Shown piece after piece: positions 1 to 59,300 of a stretch of 64,000 nt of DNA (the first letter of the stretch is position 1; every line of letters begins with the position of its first letter). The DNA comes from Tetracentron sinense. Its lineage: Eukaryota; Streptophyta; Magnoliopsida; Trochodendrales; Trochodendraceae. A program made the translations under genes and the position numbers. The notes under the pieces were generated by a model. That model saw only the letters and a list, made by a program, of their open reading frames with translations. It made no database searches and was not told the DNA's origin. The stretch covers positions 7,609,664 to 7,673,663 of the forward strand of contig CM026563.1 in assembly GCA_015143295.1 (NCBI GenBank), read 5' to 3'.

Positions 1-1528
1 AAACTGCTTATTTTGAATATTATCTAATAAAATTGTAAGAAATCTTTTTAATATTATTATTTTTTTTCCGAATTGCTCATGATTTTTTCCGAACTTGACC
101 CTTGCCAAATTATTCCCGAACCCTGACTTTGTCACTATGAATAGGTCAAGGTAGGTGCTGCTAACCTACAAGGCTATAACAAAGCTAAGAAATGCGTGAC
201 CTTTGGGAGGATCAATTGAAATCTATATTGGCAATTGGTTACTTGTGAGCTAATTGGATAATGTGATGGAAAGGTTGGACTTCTCCAAAAATAAGAAATG
301 GCAGGATGGAGGTAGATGTTGCACATTCTTGTGTCAGGCATCAATTCCAACAATATAGTGTTTTAATTAAAATCTATCTCACAACTTTTTCAGTTGGTGA
401 AAATATAGAATTTTCGATGGGTGCTTGACTTAGCAAACAATCAGTTACATTGGATCAGCAACCATTTTTTTCCAGATGTCATTATCCAAGTTCCAAGGCA
501 AGCAAGTGGAGATGTGATGGTAAGTACCAACCAGATGAAGATTTGGCACGGTTCTCTCTCGCAGAGTATAAAATACTTAGGTTCTCACAATTTAGACCTT
601 AGTAAGTACGAGGCGGTAATACCAAAAGTTCAAAAATGAAAACCTGGGAAAATTGAAAATAATGTCCGGAAATATAAGTGAAATGTGAAAGATAGAACTC
701 TTTAGAAGTATTAAATGTTTTTCTCTCTCCCTGGACCTTGGTTAGCCCTCTATTTACAAATACCCCCAACACCCTCTTTCTACACTTACTTCCTATGTCA
801 ATTTTAATGAGCTTACCATCCACTTCAATTAGGAATCCGCACCTTGTATAACTATTCTTACTCTCCATCAAAACTATTGCTACAAGAGCACTCCCTTGTC
901 TTGTTATAGCTGTCATGATTTGATCTGATCTGTTACATCATTCTTTTCTAATGTTAAAATATGCTGATACTTACCGGGCAGGGGAAATATATAAGGAACG
1001 AATGCGGAAACACATGAATTTGTGAGGGAAACAGTTTTTTATAACTATGGTATGTCTTCCTCGTTTACCAACTAAACACACATGTCACACAATTGCTTCA
1101 ATAACCAAAGTCATAATATATCCAACTCTATTATCAAATTGAAAGGGCAAATCAAGAAAGACTGAAATTTCCTGCAGATATTCTCTGTGGTTAATGGAAT
1201 TTAAAGGAAAACTTTTCCAAACCCAATTAGCCTATGCAGCTTTCGTGTCTGAGGTTGCTAAAAATAACATGTTTAAGTTAGAGGACTGCATATAAACTAT
1301 TTTCTCTCCTCAATAGTAAGAGATAGAATCCTATTCACCACAATTTTGCATCTGAAATTTCTAATCACATCCCAACCTATATCACATACTTACGCTTAGA
1401 TATGCATATAAGCAATCAATTCAAATTAAAAAAAATAAAGTCATTATTCACATTCAACATAATTTAAAACTTAGAATCATGAAATATCCCATAGCAAATT
1501 TTGTAAAGGAAAAAAAAAGAAGATAAAC
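1..1528. other. No gene seen; probable MPP6 intron
   Basis: AT-rich sequence downstream of MPP6 exon 2 on the minus strand. Short open frames occur at 421-639 (+) and 599-916 (-), but neither resembles a family I know. A possible acceptor and exon around 830-880 (-) does not read as the missing MPP6 segment. Nothing else is supported. Confidence 0.4.
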
Positions 1529-1906
1529 CATTTTCTATTGTGGGTATTAGCTGATGAGAAGCTCTCTTGGGGTTTGAGCTCTTCTTCCTTCTTAGGCTTT
1601 TCCTCTTTCAGAGCTGCTCTTTGCATGAACTGAAATAAGAAAGAATACCAAAATTAGCTCAAGGAATTACAAGGATAAATCTCAACTGGGTACTTGGAAA
1701 ATTTGAAGGGTTTTCTGAAAAGAAGAAGAAGAAGAAGACCCACATAAATTCAAGTTCGAGTTCAAAATCGAAGAGGTGATTAGAAAAATTGGCTGATAAA
1801 AACCAGTGGGAACAGTGATTTAAGTAAAGGGAAGAAAGAAAGGTGGCTCATTTTGGTATTGTACCTTCAAGTTCTTCAAAGTGCTAGAGAGCTCACGCTT
1901 AGCCAT
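1529..1906 (-). CDS. MPP6: MPP6-like protein (M-phase phosphoprotein 6 family), first two exons
   Basis: Exon 1 is 1865-1906 (14 codons, starts MAKRELSSTLKNLK) and ends at a GT donor. Exon 2 is 1529-1629 after a TTTCAG acceptor and reads FMQRAALKEEKPKKEEE, then a basic RK before a GTTTAT donor. The start and the FMQRA core are typical of plant MPP6 proteins. In animals and yeast this family binds RNA and helps the nuclear exosome, so a role in nuclear rRNA/RNA processing is inferred. The family's expected next segment (CVVIMEGDPHPGA type) was not found between 1 and 1528. The gene therefore continues left of the window or is truncated. The start codon is chosen because it is the family's own N terminus. 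A Mutator-like element sits about 130 bp upstream, so the promoter may have been replaced or shifted. Confidence 0.8.
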
Positions 1907-2024
1907 TTTACAGTCTGGTTCTCCGTTCGAAGATCACAATAGAACTCACACTAGATCTCTCTCTGTTTTTTTTTTTTTTTTTTTTGCTCATCTGCTTTTT
2001 TTCTGTAAGCAGAGGAACCGAGGG

Positions 2025-2033
2025 TTTTGGATG
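2025..2033. repeat. Left putative 9-bp target duplication of the MULE
   Basis: TTTTGGATG; partner TTTTGGAAG lies at 11628-11636. Eight of nine bases agree. It falls in the 5' flank of MPP6. Confidence 0.55.
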
Positions 2034-2409
2034 GAAGGTGGAAAGTACGGATATAGGCTCCGTATTATGAAAAAACCTTTGAAAATTTCACTTATGTAGG
2101 CTCCAACAGTGATTTTAGTGGAGCACGTGTTTTCCACTATTTTTTTTTCTCCAAGATACCCCTACCCCTATCTCTGTTGACTGCAACACTCTGCAACAGA
2201 GGTTAAATATTGCGATTCCCTTTCGTTGAAGCGTTCATCCGAAACCAAGCTTTCCCCTTCATTGCAATGAGCTAAACCTTTCTACTTCCTCTGAAACCCT
2301 TCAACACAAATTGAGATAAACCTTTCTACTTCATCCGAAACCCTTTTGAAGAAGAAGAAGAAGAGGTAGAAGAACAAGAACATAGGGTAAGTGTTTGATA
2401 CGTTTTTTA

Positions 2410-3290
2410 TCCATTTTGCGATGGTTACAGTGGTCATATTCGGTATTTGCTAGGGTTATATGCTCATTTTCGGGATTTTCTGTTATTAAAGTTCATTTAC
2501 GATGGTTACAGTGACGAAGTTTGATGTTTTTTTGCTCATTTTAGGTGGTTATCTTTGATCACAGTGCATTTTCAATATTACAGTGCTCATTTTCGGTGGT
2601 TTTGAGCTCATTTTCGGCGGTTTTGTGGTCATTTTCGGGGGTTTGATGTTATTGCATTTTCGATATTACAGTGCTTTTCGATGATTTTATGCTCATTTTT
2701 GGTGGTTTTCTGTTATAACAATGCTTTTTCGATGATTTTATGCTCATTTTTGGTGGTTTTCTGTTATAACAATGCTTTTTCGATGATTTTATGCTCATTT
2801 TCGGTGGTTTTGTTGATATTACAGTGCATTTTCGATGATTTTATGCTCATTTTCGGTGGTTTTCTGTTATTACAGTGCTATTTCGATGGTTACAGTGCTC
2901 ATTTTCAGTGGTTTTCTGTTATTGCATTTTCGATATTACAGTATATTTTCGATGCTTTGATGCTCATTTTCGGTGGTTTATGTTTTTACATTGCTTTTCG
3001 ATGGTTACAGTGTTTATTTTCGGGATTTTTCTATTATTGCATTTTCGATATTACAGTGTATTTTCGATGCTTTTATGCTCATTTTCAGTGGTTTTCTGTT
3101 TTGACAGTGCTTTTCGATGGTTACAGTGCTCATTTTCGGGGGTTTGCTATTATTGCAATTTCGATATGACAATGCTTTTTCGATGGTTTTGTGATTTTTT
3201 TCGACGGTTTTCGTTATTACAGTACATTTTCAATGGTTACAGCGCTCATTTTCAAAATTTTCCAGATTACTTTAACGGATTGAGTGTTTT
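2410..3290 (+). repeat. Minisatellite array, CATTTTCGG motif, 5' of the transposase
   Basis: Imperfect repeats of CATTTTCGGTGGTTTT, GGTTACAGTGCT and CTGTTATTACAGTG units. They create long but meaningless open frames, for example repeated MILCSF-type peptides at 2681-3169. The same core in the opposite orientation fills 6015-6735, 7915-8225 and 10455-11140, all inside the same element. The array lies between the left terminal repeat and the transposase, where the promoter and 5' leader should be. Confidence 0.85.
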
Positions 3291-50374: not shown

Positions 50375-53300
50375 TTAGAATGTATACCTCAGATTATATC
50401 TCCGAAGCCAATCTTCACCCTTTTCATAATAATCCTGCCTACTGAAGATTTGCTCTGAGAACGGCACAGCAGCAGCAAAAGCAGCAGCCCCACGCCATGC
50501 ATCAAGAACTGGGTCGGATGCTCGGACCACTCTTATAGGTGACTCAAATGGGCGTATCTTCCGGATTCCGGCTTCCAAGCGCTCACCCATACCAGGGAAG
50601 AGACAGCTCCCACCCGTCATAAGGATCGAATTGGTGATTCTCTCCTCAACACTGTTGCCCTTCAATGGCAACCTCCGAATTGAGATCCCGGCCATCTCGT
50701 CCATCCCCGCCTGATCAATTCCAATCATGTTCGGCTGAAATAGAATTTCAGGGCAGCGAAACCTTTCAACCCCAAGTATAATCTGAAAATCTTCCTTGGT
50801 GAGAGGACGGAATCGCGGGATCTCAACAATAGTTTGAAAGGGACCAATTTCTGATTTGGCAACAAAAGTCGGGTCTATGTCCTGCCATGGTGATGATCCA
50901 AGAGGTGGTGAAACAAAGTAGGGAAACTAACAACTCTATAAAATGAATTTATAATATGGAGTTGCACTACACCATACAAGAATGAATAGCTGACCTGGAG
51001 ACGAGAAGTAACGCGAGCCAGCTCCGCCTCATCCTCATCTTGTCCCTCATCATCATCATCAATATCTTTGCTCATCAGTTTGTACAGTTGCCAATCTTCG
51101 TCTCTTGTTCCAAAAGTATCCTCACCCTTCCCTCGATCAAATGCCGCAGTTGTTAAGAGACGCATCCTTTCCTTCTGGGCAGCATTCAATCTCTCACCAC
51201 GACCAACACCTCCCGACGAATTGTGACTCTCATTTGTATGGGTCCCATTTACCTTCAGCCGTTTTCTCTGCTCAAATTTCTCAGAGAGCTCTCTATGTTT
51301 AGCGTGTAATTGTTCTAAATAAAGCTCCGGGTTCTCTCTACATTGAAAAAGGAAGAGGCATAAATCAAACAAAGAATATTGTTCAAGTTCATAAAGCTAC
51401 ATCATAATTATTCATTTAGAGATCCAAGGAATGGACAAATGTTATTATGGTCTGGAATCTTCTTAGAGTATTTGATCATTTTAAGAGATCCAGACGATTT
51501 AAAAAGTGTTCCTCAGACCTTCTAAATCCAACCAAGTATTACATTCAAAACCCAGATGCAATACTAGATATTTTATTTATTTTCTGAAAACCTGAGCCCC
51601 AATTGAGAAGTTCACAAAAACTTGAAACAATTTAATCCAGAGCTTGACAACATACAAACGTTTTTTCTCATCTAGTTCATTTTGCCTTTCTCGATCTAGT
51701 TCCTCTTCAAACCGTTTCTGTTTCGCTCGTTGGCGACCCTCTGATGTGGTTTTAATAAATAACTGCTTCCTCTTTTCCTTTAGCTGGTACATGGAGAACA
51801 AAATAGAATGGTTAGCAATAATAATAATAATAACAATAACAACAATATTAACAATAACAATAACAATAACTATAACTATAACTATAACAATTATAACAAC
51901 AATGATAAGGGCTCAATTGATCAAAAAGATAATGATAAGGGCTCAAGCCATAGCTCAATTGGTTGAGGTACTCCATTGCAACCATCAGGTTGCATGCTCA
52001 AGTCCAGCTTACCCATAAAAAAAGAAAAATAACACTCCACTTCACTCAGAAAAATTGGCCAGAAAATTATTACCAAAATTTAAAATACTGAATACATAGA
52101 ACCATGGAATGAAAATGCAAGTAACATTTTTGTAAACATAAATCAACCACAACATCATAAAAGAAGGATTACAACCAGCCATTCAGTATAAGAGCACACC
52201 TGCTCTGGGGACAGCATATTGTCGGGGATATTGATGAGAGTATACTTCTCAGTCATTGAAGGATCCATCTTTTCCTCGATTTCAACTTGCTCACGCTTTG
52301 CTTTTTTTAAAGATTGTGTTACTCTAACAACAGCGGACTCAATTTCCAGCTTGGAGATATAGCCAGTCTCCGACAAGAAAGAGGGAACATCATTTTCCTG
52401 CACATTTTCGAGCTGATGTAGAAGAAATTCCAAACCTTGCAGTTCATTTTCCAGTTCAGTTATTCTAGAAGACCTCTTTGCAGCAGCCATTTCTCGCAAT
52501 CGTTGACCTTGTTTCTCCTTTATAGCCGCCTTTCTTGCTATCTCTTCTTCTGAAGGTGGCTCTTCAGCTGGAGGTGGAATCCATGGGAGTTGCCAACACC
52601 TGTTTTTCTCTTCAGCTTCCTTTGCCCCTTTCTGTCATGAAAATTGTAATACTTGAACATCAGAGCTTTTAGAAGAACACAATTGTAGAAAGAGCCAAGC
52701 TCATCACCTGAAATAATCGAACTTCAGAAGCATAATCCAGAGCTACATAACAGTGCTCCATCTTCAAGTCTTCAACCTTCTCCCATGTAATGTTGGACCT
52801 ATTTATGAGCAGAAACATGACCAAAGTTCACCTATACATCCCATTTGGTAAAAAGACCATGCAATTATTTATGCTTACATGTGATTGGGGTATTTAAGTG
52901 AAAGAAGCTGCTTCAAGTAGTCAGTGACATGGTATCCACCAATGTTAGTTCTGCAGCATGCTTCAAAAACAGGTTCTCCATTTACAAACTGAAAGTGGAA
53001 TCAATACACATCATCACCATGATCATCCAAGCATTGCTCCCAACTCTTTGGTGTTGCCTATATGAATACTTTTCGGCCATTCCAATCTATTCAGGACACA
53101 CAGTAGATTGGAATGGCAAGCTATAAGAATGGAATATGCAAAAACTGAAACGTAGCATTAGTATGCATGATGAAAAAAATAAGAGCTGAAAATCCTACTC
53201 AGTTCATAAAAAAAGTTTTGCATAAAATAGAAAATAACCCGCCAAAAGTCAAGTAATTACTCCAGTAATTAGTTCATTTCTATGTACCCATCTATCTACT

Positions 53301-56300
53301 TTCTTTAGTTATTCACTAGAGTGATTTTGATCTAGAAGACAATCCAGGGAAAGTGTTCGGATCTATTATGAGGCGCTCAACAGAGCAACACATGCACGCG
53401 CGCACACACATGTATGTATGTATGTATATCTGTCCATGCTCATGATTCATAGGTGTTGATGTAGCCAGAGTGATGTAAAACCATGACTTGTAGCTTGCAA
53501 AGACCATATCAAAGCTCACTAGTACTACTTCAGTGCGAAAAGGATTACCTATAGGCATCACAGAGAGCATCTCTTTTACTTTTTATTTTGGTTCATTTTT
53601 TCTTTCTTTTATTTATTATTTATTTTGTGTGTATGTGTGTGGGGGGTGTTCTCAACAGGTGGGTATGTGGAAGGATCACATCTTACGTGGGATTACAATG
53701 AACACAAACTGAATTTACCAACTTAGCGAGCGGCCATGGTCGAATTATGAACAGTTGTCCACCAGAAATTCTCTACGAAATCAATACAAAAACAGCCTTG
53801 ACTTTATTTTGGAGTTTGAATCTTGGGCGGAGGGTGCCGTTTAAAACTCCCCAACTTTAACTGAGTTGAGTCATGAAATCTAAATCATGTCAATAACTAA
53901 AATTAACAATAAGAGGGCAACTATTATCTGTGAAGGAGAAAAAAAAACCAGGAAACCTCAGGAGAAAAAGGCACAAATATATAATATATATTATTTCTTA
54001 ACAGATATCACAAAGTTTAGCACACACAAGTCACAACTCATCTTACTGCATGTTCTACAGCATATAAGCATGAAAGCCGGTTGGGTATTGCCGTATTGGT
54101 GGAAATCACCCACAGTTTTTTAGGGTGGGGATGTCATAACTCATGCCTCAACCAGATTAACACTCAAGGTGGGTTCAACCTAGCAGTTTTATGCTGAGCT
54201 AGCTTGTGCAGCTGCTTACTAAATTGAGAGACAGCCTGACCTGACTGGCTTAGTACCACCCCTGGTAACAATCAAGTTTGAATTTAACTAGATAACTGAT
54301 GCTGAAAATTTGATGGCACTGGCACCACGTAATACTTGTTCACTCAATCATATAGCCAAGCCTCTCCAAATCAGCATTGAGAAGAAAACAATTCCATCAA
54401 TAAACATGTGTGAAGCAAGAGCTTTACCATAGTTGGTACTATATCTCTTGATCCCACAGTTGCCAGTACATAACCCATGCATGTACCATACTACCATAAG
54501 ACTATGAAGATGAAAAGAAAGCTCAGATAAGTAATCCTAACTATTTAGCAAGGTTCTAAATGTCAATATCGCATGTCATGTCGAGCCGTTGAAAAAAGAT
54601 ATATCGGGGACGGGGATATATCGTAAGTTTTAGCGATATCGTGGGAATATATCGCACGTGGAGGGAAAAATAAAAAAAAAATAGTGAAAACATGAATTTT
54701 TTAAATGAAACTTCATGAAATATTAAAATAAATGTTAATATACATCAGAAAATCAAAAATTTTAAAAAAAAAAAAACAATGTATATAAGAGATGCAATGA
54801 GAAGGGGGTCAAAGATGTGCGATGACGCTGAAGACAATGTATGATTCACTAATATTAATGCAACTTACATAAAAAGTTGTATTTATTTCTCAATCAAGCA
54901 TAACAATTAACTCATATACAATCAATTTCATACATACTAGTTAATACATCAATAATGGTATCTCCAAGTTAAATGGCATGCGTTGTCTGTTTATTTAAGT
55001 TATAATTTCTTCTTGATATTTCTCTATATTGTCAAAATAAAGTAAACGCAATTTTTTCTCTTAGGGTTCGTTTGGTAGATCTTCTCCATTCTTGTCTATT
55101 TCGGATAGATCTAATCAAAATAAATCTGTGACAAAAAGATATGTAAAAAATAAATTTATAGACAATAGAACCGTTTGCCAATGCACAGTAATAGACATAG
55201 CTTTTTTGTAAAACTGTGTTTGGTAACATCATCTTATTGCATCTTATTGCAGGGGTAGTTGACATCATTTTAAAAAAATTAATTTCTATTAAGTAGCCAA
55301 TTTAACATAAATACATGTCAATTACTCATCAACCATTCAAGCCCCTTACCGTATAGAGAGATGACAAGTCCAACTAAAAAATAATTGAGTATTGCAAGGT
55401 ACATCAAAACATGTTATGCTTCATCAAAACATGTTGTATTTTTTTTTTTTAAAGCATATAGCGATTGTAGAAAGACAAGATAACATGCATGAGAGAGAAG
55501 AATTAATGAGACCAAAAACAAAGAGAGAGGAATTAAGTGCTTTTTAGACTTTAACATTGAACTATGATTGGAATGGATAGACTCTGCATTGGAAAAATCT
55601 GGGCAAGTCATCTGTGTTTCTGTAGGGATTCACGAGTTGAAGAAGGGAGGATACCGTGGGATCTTGAAGGTGCCTCTGTGCCGTGAGATCTTGAGAGAAA
55701 GACGAAGGTTATCTTCTTCTCCATTACAGTATTTTTTTTGTTTTGTTTGAAGGATTGTTTAAGGTTTAAAGAAAGATGAAGGTTCTCTCTCCCCTTTCTC
55801 CCAGTCTCCATGCGATCTTTGCCAGCTGTCCGACAAGTCACATGTTTGAATCAGGAGCTTATAGTGTTCTTGATCGATTTGGGGCTTTTGTTTATAAATG
55901 AACGCTTTTTGCTGGTGTTGGATTCGCTGCTAGTCTTGTGGGTACGACTCTCTCAAATGGGTTGATCAAGATGAGGAAGAAGATGAATCCTAATTTCAAG
56001 ACTCCCAATAAGGCTCCACCTACAGTTTTGAATGTTCTTACTTGGGCAATTCACATGGGTTTGAGCAGTAATTTTAGATACCAGACATTGAATGGGATCG
56101 AGTTTTTGTTGGCGAAGTCGCTCTCGCCCTTTGGATTTAAGGCCTTAGTCATGGTTTTGAGGGCTTTGAATAATGTTCTTGGAGGGGTTTCTCGTTTGTT
56201 ATGTTACCAAGGTTGACGGGAACCCAGTCGGATCAGGAAGAGAATTTGGGTTGACAGGAGGAGAGAGATGAGAGAGGAGTGATGAGAGAGGAGAGAGAGA

Positions 56301-59300
56301 GGGGCTCGACAAAGGAGAGATGAGAGAGGTGACAAGAGAGAGTCGAGGGTGATTAGAGAATTTTATGATTTTTATAGGGGTAAAACCGACTGTAAAAACG
56401 TCGGAATTACCGTCAAAATGTCTACCCACAGTAGATACCAACCTCTGTACAAAAAAGCACCGCTTTCCTTACTTTTTGAAAAAGAGGTAAATTTTCTTTT
56501 TGTCTTTTTGTGACAGACATTAGACATCCATCCAAACGGTCTAAAATTATGATACGTCTACCCGCCGTAGACAATTAGACTCTATAAATAGACATGCCAA
56601 AAACGGGGTCTTAGTCAATTGAAGGGGATATGTAGACCCATTTTATTCTCTTTAATGAAATAAATCTTTTAAAAAATAATAATACTACTAATAAAATTCA
56701 TCACTAAATAAAATATTCATGAATTCAAATATAATCCTTAAAATAAAAGGACATTGTACTAATCAATAACTGTAAAAAAAAATTGTACAAACCAATCTGC
56801 GATTCGTAAATTTTGACCGATATTTCCGAAATATCATGCAATATTTTGGACATATTGATCTACATTTACGAAAAATTATAAAAATCAAAATACCTAGTAT
56901 AGATGTGTCGAGAGTCATCGAAATAGATATATATCGTCGATATTTCGGAAATATCAACGATATTTTGAACCATGCTCTTTAGATATCTAATAATGGCAAG
57001 ATAAATAAAAATAATTAGAAAGGAATCCCAAAGCGCATCCATTATACACTAATCTTTTTATCAATTTTCCACACCTGCATTCAGGACAAGTTCCTAAACG
57101 TGCTCCTAAACACATCCAAATACTGACCACTCATTCTGCAAGAAAACCTGCTTATTATGTCCATCACTAACTTCAGATATATCAAGGTTGATAAGCTTAC
57201 AGGGATAATATGACTTGTATTTAATCCTGAGCATATTGCAAGACCATCTTTATCACAAACCCCAAGCTGTTGATTATACTTGTAGCTGAATACAGCATCA
57301 ACACCAAATGCTGTCATCCCAGAAAGAAAAGACAGATCATTAGAAAATAATACATACCAACAATAAGCATTTAAAAGCATCAAAAGAATATTTGGGCTCC
57401 AAGCAGTGCATTTAAGCATTTTTAATGAGTGAACTTACAAACACAACAGTATGGACCAGTCTTTTAAAAGATGAAAGCGTGAAGCGAGGGACGTTAGGAC
57501 CTAAGTAATATGAATAATATTTTTTCATCGGCAACTAATATAAATAATAATTACAAATGGAAAAGCTGAAAAAGTTTTTTTTTAAAAGAACACACACACA
57601 CCCCATGGCGTGCATGCAGCATGCGTTAGCGCGCGTGCGTGCACACACGAAATTACATGAAATGTGATATAATTGATTTAATCATCATATAGAAGGAAAA
57701 AAATAATAGACGCAAGGAAAGGCCACAATATTAGTTTTTTGTTCAATGCGTAATGAAAGCAAATGATGTTCAATCATCAATTCATGCCACGGATTTTAGA
57801 CACTAATGGACAATAGCACAAAAATCATTAAAAAATGGAGAAAATAAAATTTTAAGTCATAAGGCATGCAGCTCATGTGACTAGAACTCTATTTTTGGTT
57901 AATGTATGAGTATGCTCCTTATGCATAAAACTAGCCTCAAGGCATAAGGCATGCACCTCATGTGAGCCTCACACCCTGAAACGTAAGCCTTAAATAATAT
58001 AAGCCTCAAAATTGAGCCTTGGGGCAATTTCCTTGAACCTCAAGGTGTATGCCTCACACACACTTTAAAACACTGGTATAGACTATCGGCCCCCAAAAAA
58101 ATGAATATTTGGGTCAATGGTTAGGCCAATCCCCTGACAATCCAGAAAACATATGGCCCACTGACTCATGGTGGACCATGCATCATGCTAATAAAAAACT
58201 GAGTCTAACCAAGTACTTAAAACCATAATTTTTTTTCCATTTGCAGAATTTAGCTTATGCATTCATACCTACTGATGGAACCCCATAACCCTCAAAAAGA
58301 AGTTCTGCCAATTTACTGCGAGACTGAACTGGATTGCATACACATTCTGTGATCAGGATAGGGTGATCAACCTGTTCTGCCCTCGAATTTAACATTAAAA
58401 AAATAAAATCATGTGAATACACTGCAAAGCAAAACCTTCTAAATCATGGTGTCAAGTATTATGTATTAAAAATTCTTATGAACAGATCAATGTCACTGCA
58501 TAAACAACACAGCATCACACATCATGCATGATGCACGTGTATAAACATAGAAGATGTAAGCATGTACTAGCTGAGGATGAATTGAGTTAAGCAACCAGTT
58601 TTACATTAGCCTGAGAATGTAAAAAGAGAACTTATCAATTAACCCTCAAGCCACATTATTAGTATCCTAATATTGACAAACTCCCAACGCCGTAAATCTA
58701 TGATCCATGATGTTTGAATCAAGTCACCTAAGAAACCAAAAATATTTCTTAAATCAATGTGGTTATAATCAAGGTTGTTAAATCGTAAAATTGTTTTAGG
58801 ACCGATTCGATTCAAATCGGGATTTAAATCGTAAATCGTAAGATTCAATCCATTTTTTTAAAAATACAAAAAATTACTTAATAAATAAATAAATAAAATA
58901 GAATAATCTATTATCCAAAAGATTTTATTCATATCTATTGATAAAATAAAGCAATGAACATTTCATTGCATACACTATAAAAAAACGCGAATGAACTCTA
59001 TAAAATGAAAAAAAAACTCAATATCATATAGATAAATGAACAAAAGTAAATTCATATAATCATGTTATATGAGATCAAGTATCAAAAGACTTGTACAATT
59101 AAAAAGACTAATAAAATAAATTATTAAGTTTTCCCAAAATCCAACTCCATCTTTCTTCTTCCTCTTTTTTTTGTTTTTTCTATTTCACAACATGTTAGCA
59201 ACTAAAAGAAAACCCAAATAAGGGTTTTGGTATGTCTGTAGCAGGGAATTTCCTGTTTCTTCTCTTTTTAAAAGACATTAAGTACCTTTAGAAAATCAAA

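Follow-up and report, generated by a model that had tools for sequence, protein, structure and literature searches.

A RETICULATA-related gene fragment inside a non-autonomous PIF/Harbinger element of Tetracentron sinense, with a seam that suggests capture by multi-template repair

How PIF/Harbinger transposons come to carry pieces of host genes is an open question, and it is raised by a 64000-nt stretch of the Tetracentron sinense genome (C13:7609664–7673663, hereafter the window), in which an element of 1547 bp (55064..56610, plus strand) contains a piece of a RETICULATA-related (RER) gene. We compared this element with the 1.16-Gb assembly (1479 contigs; C and L numbers denote contigs and loci). 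The results make it likely that the element is a Pack-PIF formed by multi-template repair inside one older element, which then spread. A preliminary description of the window had regarded such a capture as notable for its rarity in PIF/Harbinger elements; this did not hold, as PIF gene capture is already described in the accessible parts of reports on grapevine PIF elements (PMC2528002) and on maize and rice Pack-PIFs (PMC8903248). The element is a case of a known kind, and its value lies in a readable seam.

The RER piece had 11 genome matches (11/11 candidates scored), namely eight element copies, a parent gene at C7:30238539 (L009; 93% identical), a truncated duplicate and a paralogous RER gene at C13:24714201 (83% identical). 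The sequence was found only in element copies and RER genes, bearing out the capture that the preliminary description had proposed. The duplicate (L010; C7:30536786) is 5′-truncated, 93% identical and ~300 kb from the parent. The parent ORF (open reading frame) has 366 codons, is intronless and matched PF11891 at 4.3e-64, and the window piece matched the same family at 7.3e-23. The piece had been described as ~340 bp at 55902–56245; its presence was confirmed, and its extent was revised to 449 bp (55797..56245, plus strand), corresponding to codons 187–335 of the parent ORF with a TGA and a 2-bp frameshift. After the in-frame TGA, the frame opens again at 55902. The preliminary description had also looked to the exon borders of a parental gene; the parent was found, and exon borders were dropped as evidence because it is intronless.

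We then aligned the seam in seven RER copies (L002, 99.9% identical to the window, was left out). RER-less relatives are continuous across the insertion point, with 22–25 nt there in four of the five (L012–L015; L016 was ambiguous). L008 is the sole RER copy that keeps ~360 bp also present in RER-less L012–L014 and L016 and partly in L015, and in L008 ~540 bp replaces the 22–25 nt of those four relatives. In the left part of the L008 insert, 24 nt repeat positions 700–723 of the element itself exactly in inverted orientation, entered at the common TGGGAAGA (55691..55710, minus strand, with 19/20 nt in the window copy). Next, positions 954–971, just 5′ of the seam, recur as 18 exactly matching nt in inverted orientation (55712..55725, minus strand, 14/14 nt in the window copy), followed by ~45 bp that match an intron of an ArfGAP-domain gene at C1:10784530 (55722..55767, plus strand). 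Sixteen nucleotides of the first inverted piece then come again (55770..55785, minus strand; 15/16 in L008, 16/16 in the four others, the window copy included), and a CT-rich stretch precedes the RER piece. The exit from RER is at CAGGA, which is found in both the RER gene and the older element, and beyond it lies the 3′ part of the pre-capture element (56246..56610, plus strand), homologous to RER-less L012–L016. The filler gave a best match of 17 nt to the RER genes. The preliminary description had missed the intron snippet and the inverted self-copies at the seam.

The ArfGAP intron match covered 44/48 columns in both L008 and the window, with a 23-nt exact run, and fewer columns in L003, L005 and L006; the exon adjoining the matched intron gave ArfGap at 1.3e-18. 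Two sites outside elements matched the snippet (10/10 candidates scored), the second being an ArfGAP-like site at C1:10361001. This snippet also bears on a retro-derived capture, in which the RER piece would come from mRNA or cDNA. The piece is indeed free of introns, but so is the parent ORF, so their absence says nothing, and the snippet matches an intron at a point immediately following an exon, which argues for DNA or unspliced templates. We regard a retro-derived origin as very improbable.

The model in print for plants is the fusion of neighbouring insertions (PMC8903248, PMC13317346), with gap filling and fork switching argued from animals. Fusion would mean here that two neighbouring insertions flanking RER lost their inner ends and were then mobilised together. 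As far as the accessible parts of the two sources go, it is the model offered for Pack-TYPE elements, including a maize Pack-PIF cluster (PMC8903248), and has also been proposed for Pack-CACTA in a 2026 review (PMC13317346). At this seam, however, both insert flanks are continuous in single RER-less elements, with the 22–25 nt in place of the insert (4/5), and no element ends lie beside the insert: a 12-base terminus (3 mismatches allowed) was not found there in five copies, and the single 3-mismatch match, in L003, is within the RER piece itself. Furthermore, the insert matches at least two unrelated templates and holds inverted self-copies as well, and the sources are on separate contigs, RER on C7 and ArfGAP on C1. 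Fusion is therefore unlikely, and template-switching repair fits the seam better.

On this repair model, a break or a stalled fork would have interrupted the interior of one older L012–L016-type element before it spread. Repair by DNA synthesis would have switched template several times, probably in the order of the patches, using inverted stretches of the element, the ArfGAP intron snippet and 449 bp of the RER gene, and would have rejoined the element 22–25 bp further on. The repaired product would then have spread to no fewer than four sites, the ~360 bp adjoining the seam would later have been lost in the window copy's lineage, and one copy would have jumped into an outer hAT-type element within ARP5. 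L008 was the most distant copy, with K of 0.088–0.095 to the others vs 0.054–0.067 among the other sites (noisy L007 left out), in keeping with our inference that it is apparently the older state.

The RER piece occurs in eight element loci genome-wide. Counting every copy as independent was rejected because L001, L002, L003, L007 and L004/L017 have common ARP5-intron flanks and represent one insertion duplicated with its surroundings, leaving four independent sites: the ARP5-intron group of five loci, L005, L006 and L008. The element thus moved after capture, is non-autonomous and contains a piece of a host gene whose parent can be identified, as in Pack-TYPE elements. Two members of the ARP5-intron group were unusual. 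L002 (C13:19709703, minus strand) lies 12 Mb away on the same contig yet has 99.8% identity to the window across 4.4 kb, being either a recent duplication or an assembly error. L007 (C13:7676429–7678010), ~3 kb past the window end, is a noisy near-copy of the ARP5-intron segment (87%, 285 gap openings over 4.6 kb) with some window-specific letters in common, and looks like an unpolished false duplication.

Next, we asked to which family the element belongs. Its 5′ end reads GGGTTCGTTTGGTA and the reverse complement of its 3′ end reads GACCCCGTTTTTGGCA, the likeness between the two being only partial. TTA target-site duplications stand on the left (55061..55063) and right (56611..56613), and a copy of the outer element on C22 (L079; 756/882 columns identical) crosses the insertion point with a single TTA, giving a paralogous empty site: TCTC-TTA-GTCAATTG vs TCTC-TTA-(element)-TTA-GTCAATTG in the window. 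The whole element had at least 51 genome matches (the best 40 of 661 first-look candidates scored) and its first 247 bp at least 41 (the best 40 of 608). The 5′ terminal 239 bp (55064..55302, plus strand) recur at ~76–87% in relatives, including transposase-bearing ones, and a 25-base 3′-end pattern (≤2 mismatches, TWA included in the pattern) gave 21 matches vs 0 for the reversed control. TWA-bounded ends thus recur as a family, as had been supposed of TTA-bounded termini. Among 30 loci taken with a 5′-end match (8 RER copies and 22 RER-less), the triplet beside the 5′ end was TTA or TAA in 21/22 RER-less loci, L052 being one base off; since L039 and L050 are the same site, the count becomes 20/21. 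The target-site pair was exact at the window site and in L005 (TAA on both sides), L013, L038, L039, L054 and L035/L069. Besides these 3-bp TTA/TAA duplications, the ends begin with the G(N)5GTT motif of PIF/Harbinger terminal inverted repeats (TIRs), as GGGTTCGTTTGG at the 5′ end and as the reverse complement GACCCCGTTTGG at the 3′ end in several copies.

The window element has no transposase. Profile matches came from one locus on C15, L043/L066, tied to the family by the 5′ end in common, with DDE_Tnp_4 (2.4e-13) at L043 and Myb_DNA-bind_3 (PF12776; a Myb/SANT ORF; 1.5e-15) in the longer cut L066. Candidate L066 was rejected as a full transposase-bearing element because its 3′ end was not found. 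In a C4 relative (L035/L069) both ends are present, with GGGTTCGTTTGG after TAA and CCAAACGGGCTC before TAA ~4.8 kb apart; its 3′ homology to the window element is 72.6% over 106 columns (E 1.5e-8), and L035 is 93% identical to L043 over 1–1724. The sequence of the C4 element was covered but for ~1.1 kb in its middle. Because of the DDE_Tnp_4 and Myb/SANT matches at L043/L066 and of this both-ended relative, the element is, by its sequence, assigned to PIF/Harbinger, in agreement with the type first proposed. By eye, the same transposase-like ORFs recur, on the opposite strand, in several RER-less relatives. No Pfam match was obtained for the ORFs of L042 and L039, the N-terminal transposase-side ORF of L043 gave a weak unrelated Pfam match only, and no transposase matches overlapping element ends were seen by eye among the best 150 of 948 candidates scored. 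Mobilisation of the window element was probably in trans, through relatives that bear transposase and have similar ends. In L040, a histone H2A-like ORF ~1.4 kb from the element 5′ end, probably a neighbouring gene, was taken as flanking sequence.

Another member of the family, also missed by the preliminary description, carries a second kind of gene piece. L038 (C2:38866073) is a sister element with both ends and TTA duplications, and a stretch of it aligns over 527 columns, at 84% identity, with a PPR gene (L071; C4:4707965) whose open stretch is 516 codons long. The PPR-like ORF in L038 scored 19.5 bits, short of the Pfam cut-off of 30, and a PPR origin of the piece is suggested by its DNA identity to L071. 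The interior of L038 has a closer relative at C13:40283938 (88%). The 641-bp interior of L013 gave 15 genome matches, among which no donor was recognised.

We also considered whether the RER piece may be functional, either in a chimeric protein or by regulating RER or ARP5 through antisense transcripts or small RNAs. The piece is 93% identical to its parent, lies within a gene and is antisense to ARP5, and the parent-to-copy comparisons have a third-position excess (differences at codon positions 1/2/3 of 9/5/12, 8/7/15, 7/4/16, 9/10/13 and 5/6/14), as in the 7/4/16 pair, though the gene's own constraint can give the same. On the other side, 6/7 aligned copies have the same in-frame TGA, the exception being noisy L007 with one extra base at that point, and a 2-bp insertion near the end of the piece is present in 7/7; this common stop and frameshift appear to predate the spread. 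Between independent insertions no third-position excess was seen: the counts of 8/3/10, 7/9/6, 12/5/10, 8/8/8, 10/4/9 and 12/10/8 sum to 57/39/51 over six pairs that are not independent, compared with 12/8/36 between the two RER genes. Because of the common stop and frameshift and the lack of third-position excess among copies, the piece looks like dead coding sequence that is not maintained as RER coding, and a function of either kind seems highly unlikely.

The surroundings have the three layers that the preliminary description had read at this place, the inner element lying in an outer element within ARP5, and the empty site in L079 agrees with this reading. The outermost ARP5 pieces tested span 50378..58443 (minus strand). 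For the minus-strand pieces 58258–58443, 52158–52634 and 50378–50926, the best matches were solved Arp5 chains in PDB. Pfam called actin for 50378–50926 only, and 52158–52634 had two weak Pfam matches to other families, below their cut-offs. ARP5 coding pieces thus flank the nest on both sides on the minus strand, and therefore the RER piece is antisense to ARP5. The outer CAAGGTTC-ended element (54549..56974, plus strand), interrupted by the inner one, would be of hAT type by its 8-bp duplication, CTATTTAG on the left (54541..54548) and CTCTTTAG on the right (56975..56982), identical at 7/8 positions in the window copy and exact in a same-ended element of L017. The outer element had 3348 first-look candidates, of which the best 40 were scored, and by match-table coordinates its left and right parts abut exactly at five more places (C1:44.3, C7:28.7, C12:11.2, C15:14.7 and C22:32.2 Mb). 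The L017 element (934–3212; C563) is a 2.3-kb CAAGGTTC...GAACCTTG element that has entered the RER element and is flanked there by a perfect 8-bp duplication, GTAACATC; it is 75% like the outer element over the first ~300 bp and adds one more nesting level.

A number of observations weigh against our interpretation of the seam, the family or the nest. L008 could be a recombinant and not an older form, and all the seam evidence comes from one capture event. All patches are short sequences rich in purines or T; a match of 15 letters to the patch-1 source can also be read in direct orientation at another place in the element, so that only the full 24 nt mark the inverted source; the CT-rich stretch is too simple to assign; and the CAGGA microhomology could be due to chance. 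The best inverted self match scored 51.8 bits and none of 100 shuffled versions exceeded 35.6, but the shuffling was of two-base blocks, a control that is less than a full dinucleotide model. At the ends, the duplications differ in L008 (ATA and TAA) and do not match in L015, L006 lacks the first 12 bp, and the first bases and flank of L012 do not fit. A 3′ end was located in one of the five transposase-bearing relatives examined (L066–L070; only L069), and no intact transposase was seen. On the other side of the nest, the nearest piece (57084–57434, ~57.2 kb) had no match in Pfam or PDB and, cut to 40 residues, gave only a weak Arp5 match (E 0.063).

How does the element compare with known systems, as far as the available parts of their descriptions go? 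Like the maize and rice Pack-PIFs (PMC8903248), it is non-autonomous, mostly flanked by TTA/TAA, carries a multicopy gene fragment and has fragment-less sisters; Gisby and Catoni (2022) find cases compatible with neighbour fusion, whereas we see an apparent multi-template patch in one element, and the host here appears to be an early-diverging eudicot. The transduplications of grapevine Pifvine-3 (PMC2528002) are likewise gene fragments in PIF elements, some common to multiple copies, although Pifvine-3 elements are described with transposase and ORF1 regions. The TIR GGGTCCGTTTGGTTC and G(N)5GTT motif of the Medicago PIF/Harbinger element MtPH-A6 (PMC2213677), whose core elements carry a transposase plus orf1, resemble GGGTTCGTTTGG here, a likeness of TIR, motif and gene content. 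In animals, microhomology-linked template switching inside a TIR element followed by spread through transposition has been reported; the authors, in what is accessible of their account, leave plant Pack-MULEs open, whereas several switches and inverted self-copies are proposed here at one seam. No case of template-switching capture by a plant PIF element was found by title or abstract start in the open-access literature.

Annotation could miscall the RER piece as part of an RER gene, and the readable seam bears on how PIF gene capture happens, since uninterrupted relatives, donor genes, a seemingly older copy and later copies within one genome make the steps of capture readable. More generally, plant PIF/Harbinger elements may take up unlinked gene pieces when synthesis switches template repeatedly within one element, through a FoSTeST or gap-filling route that leaves self-inverted copies, an intron snippet and an exon piece, and this family may have done so more than once (RER here and PPR in L038), so that it would hold a standing record of seams, a proposal on which we are close to evenly divided and lean slightly against.

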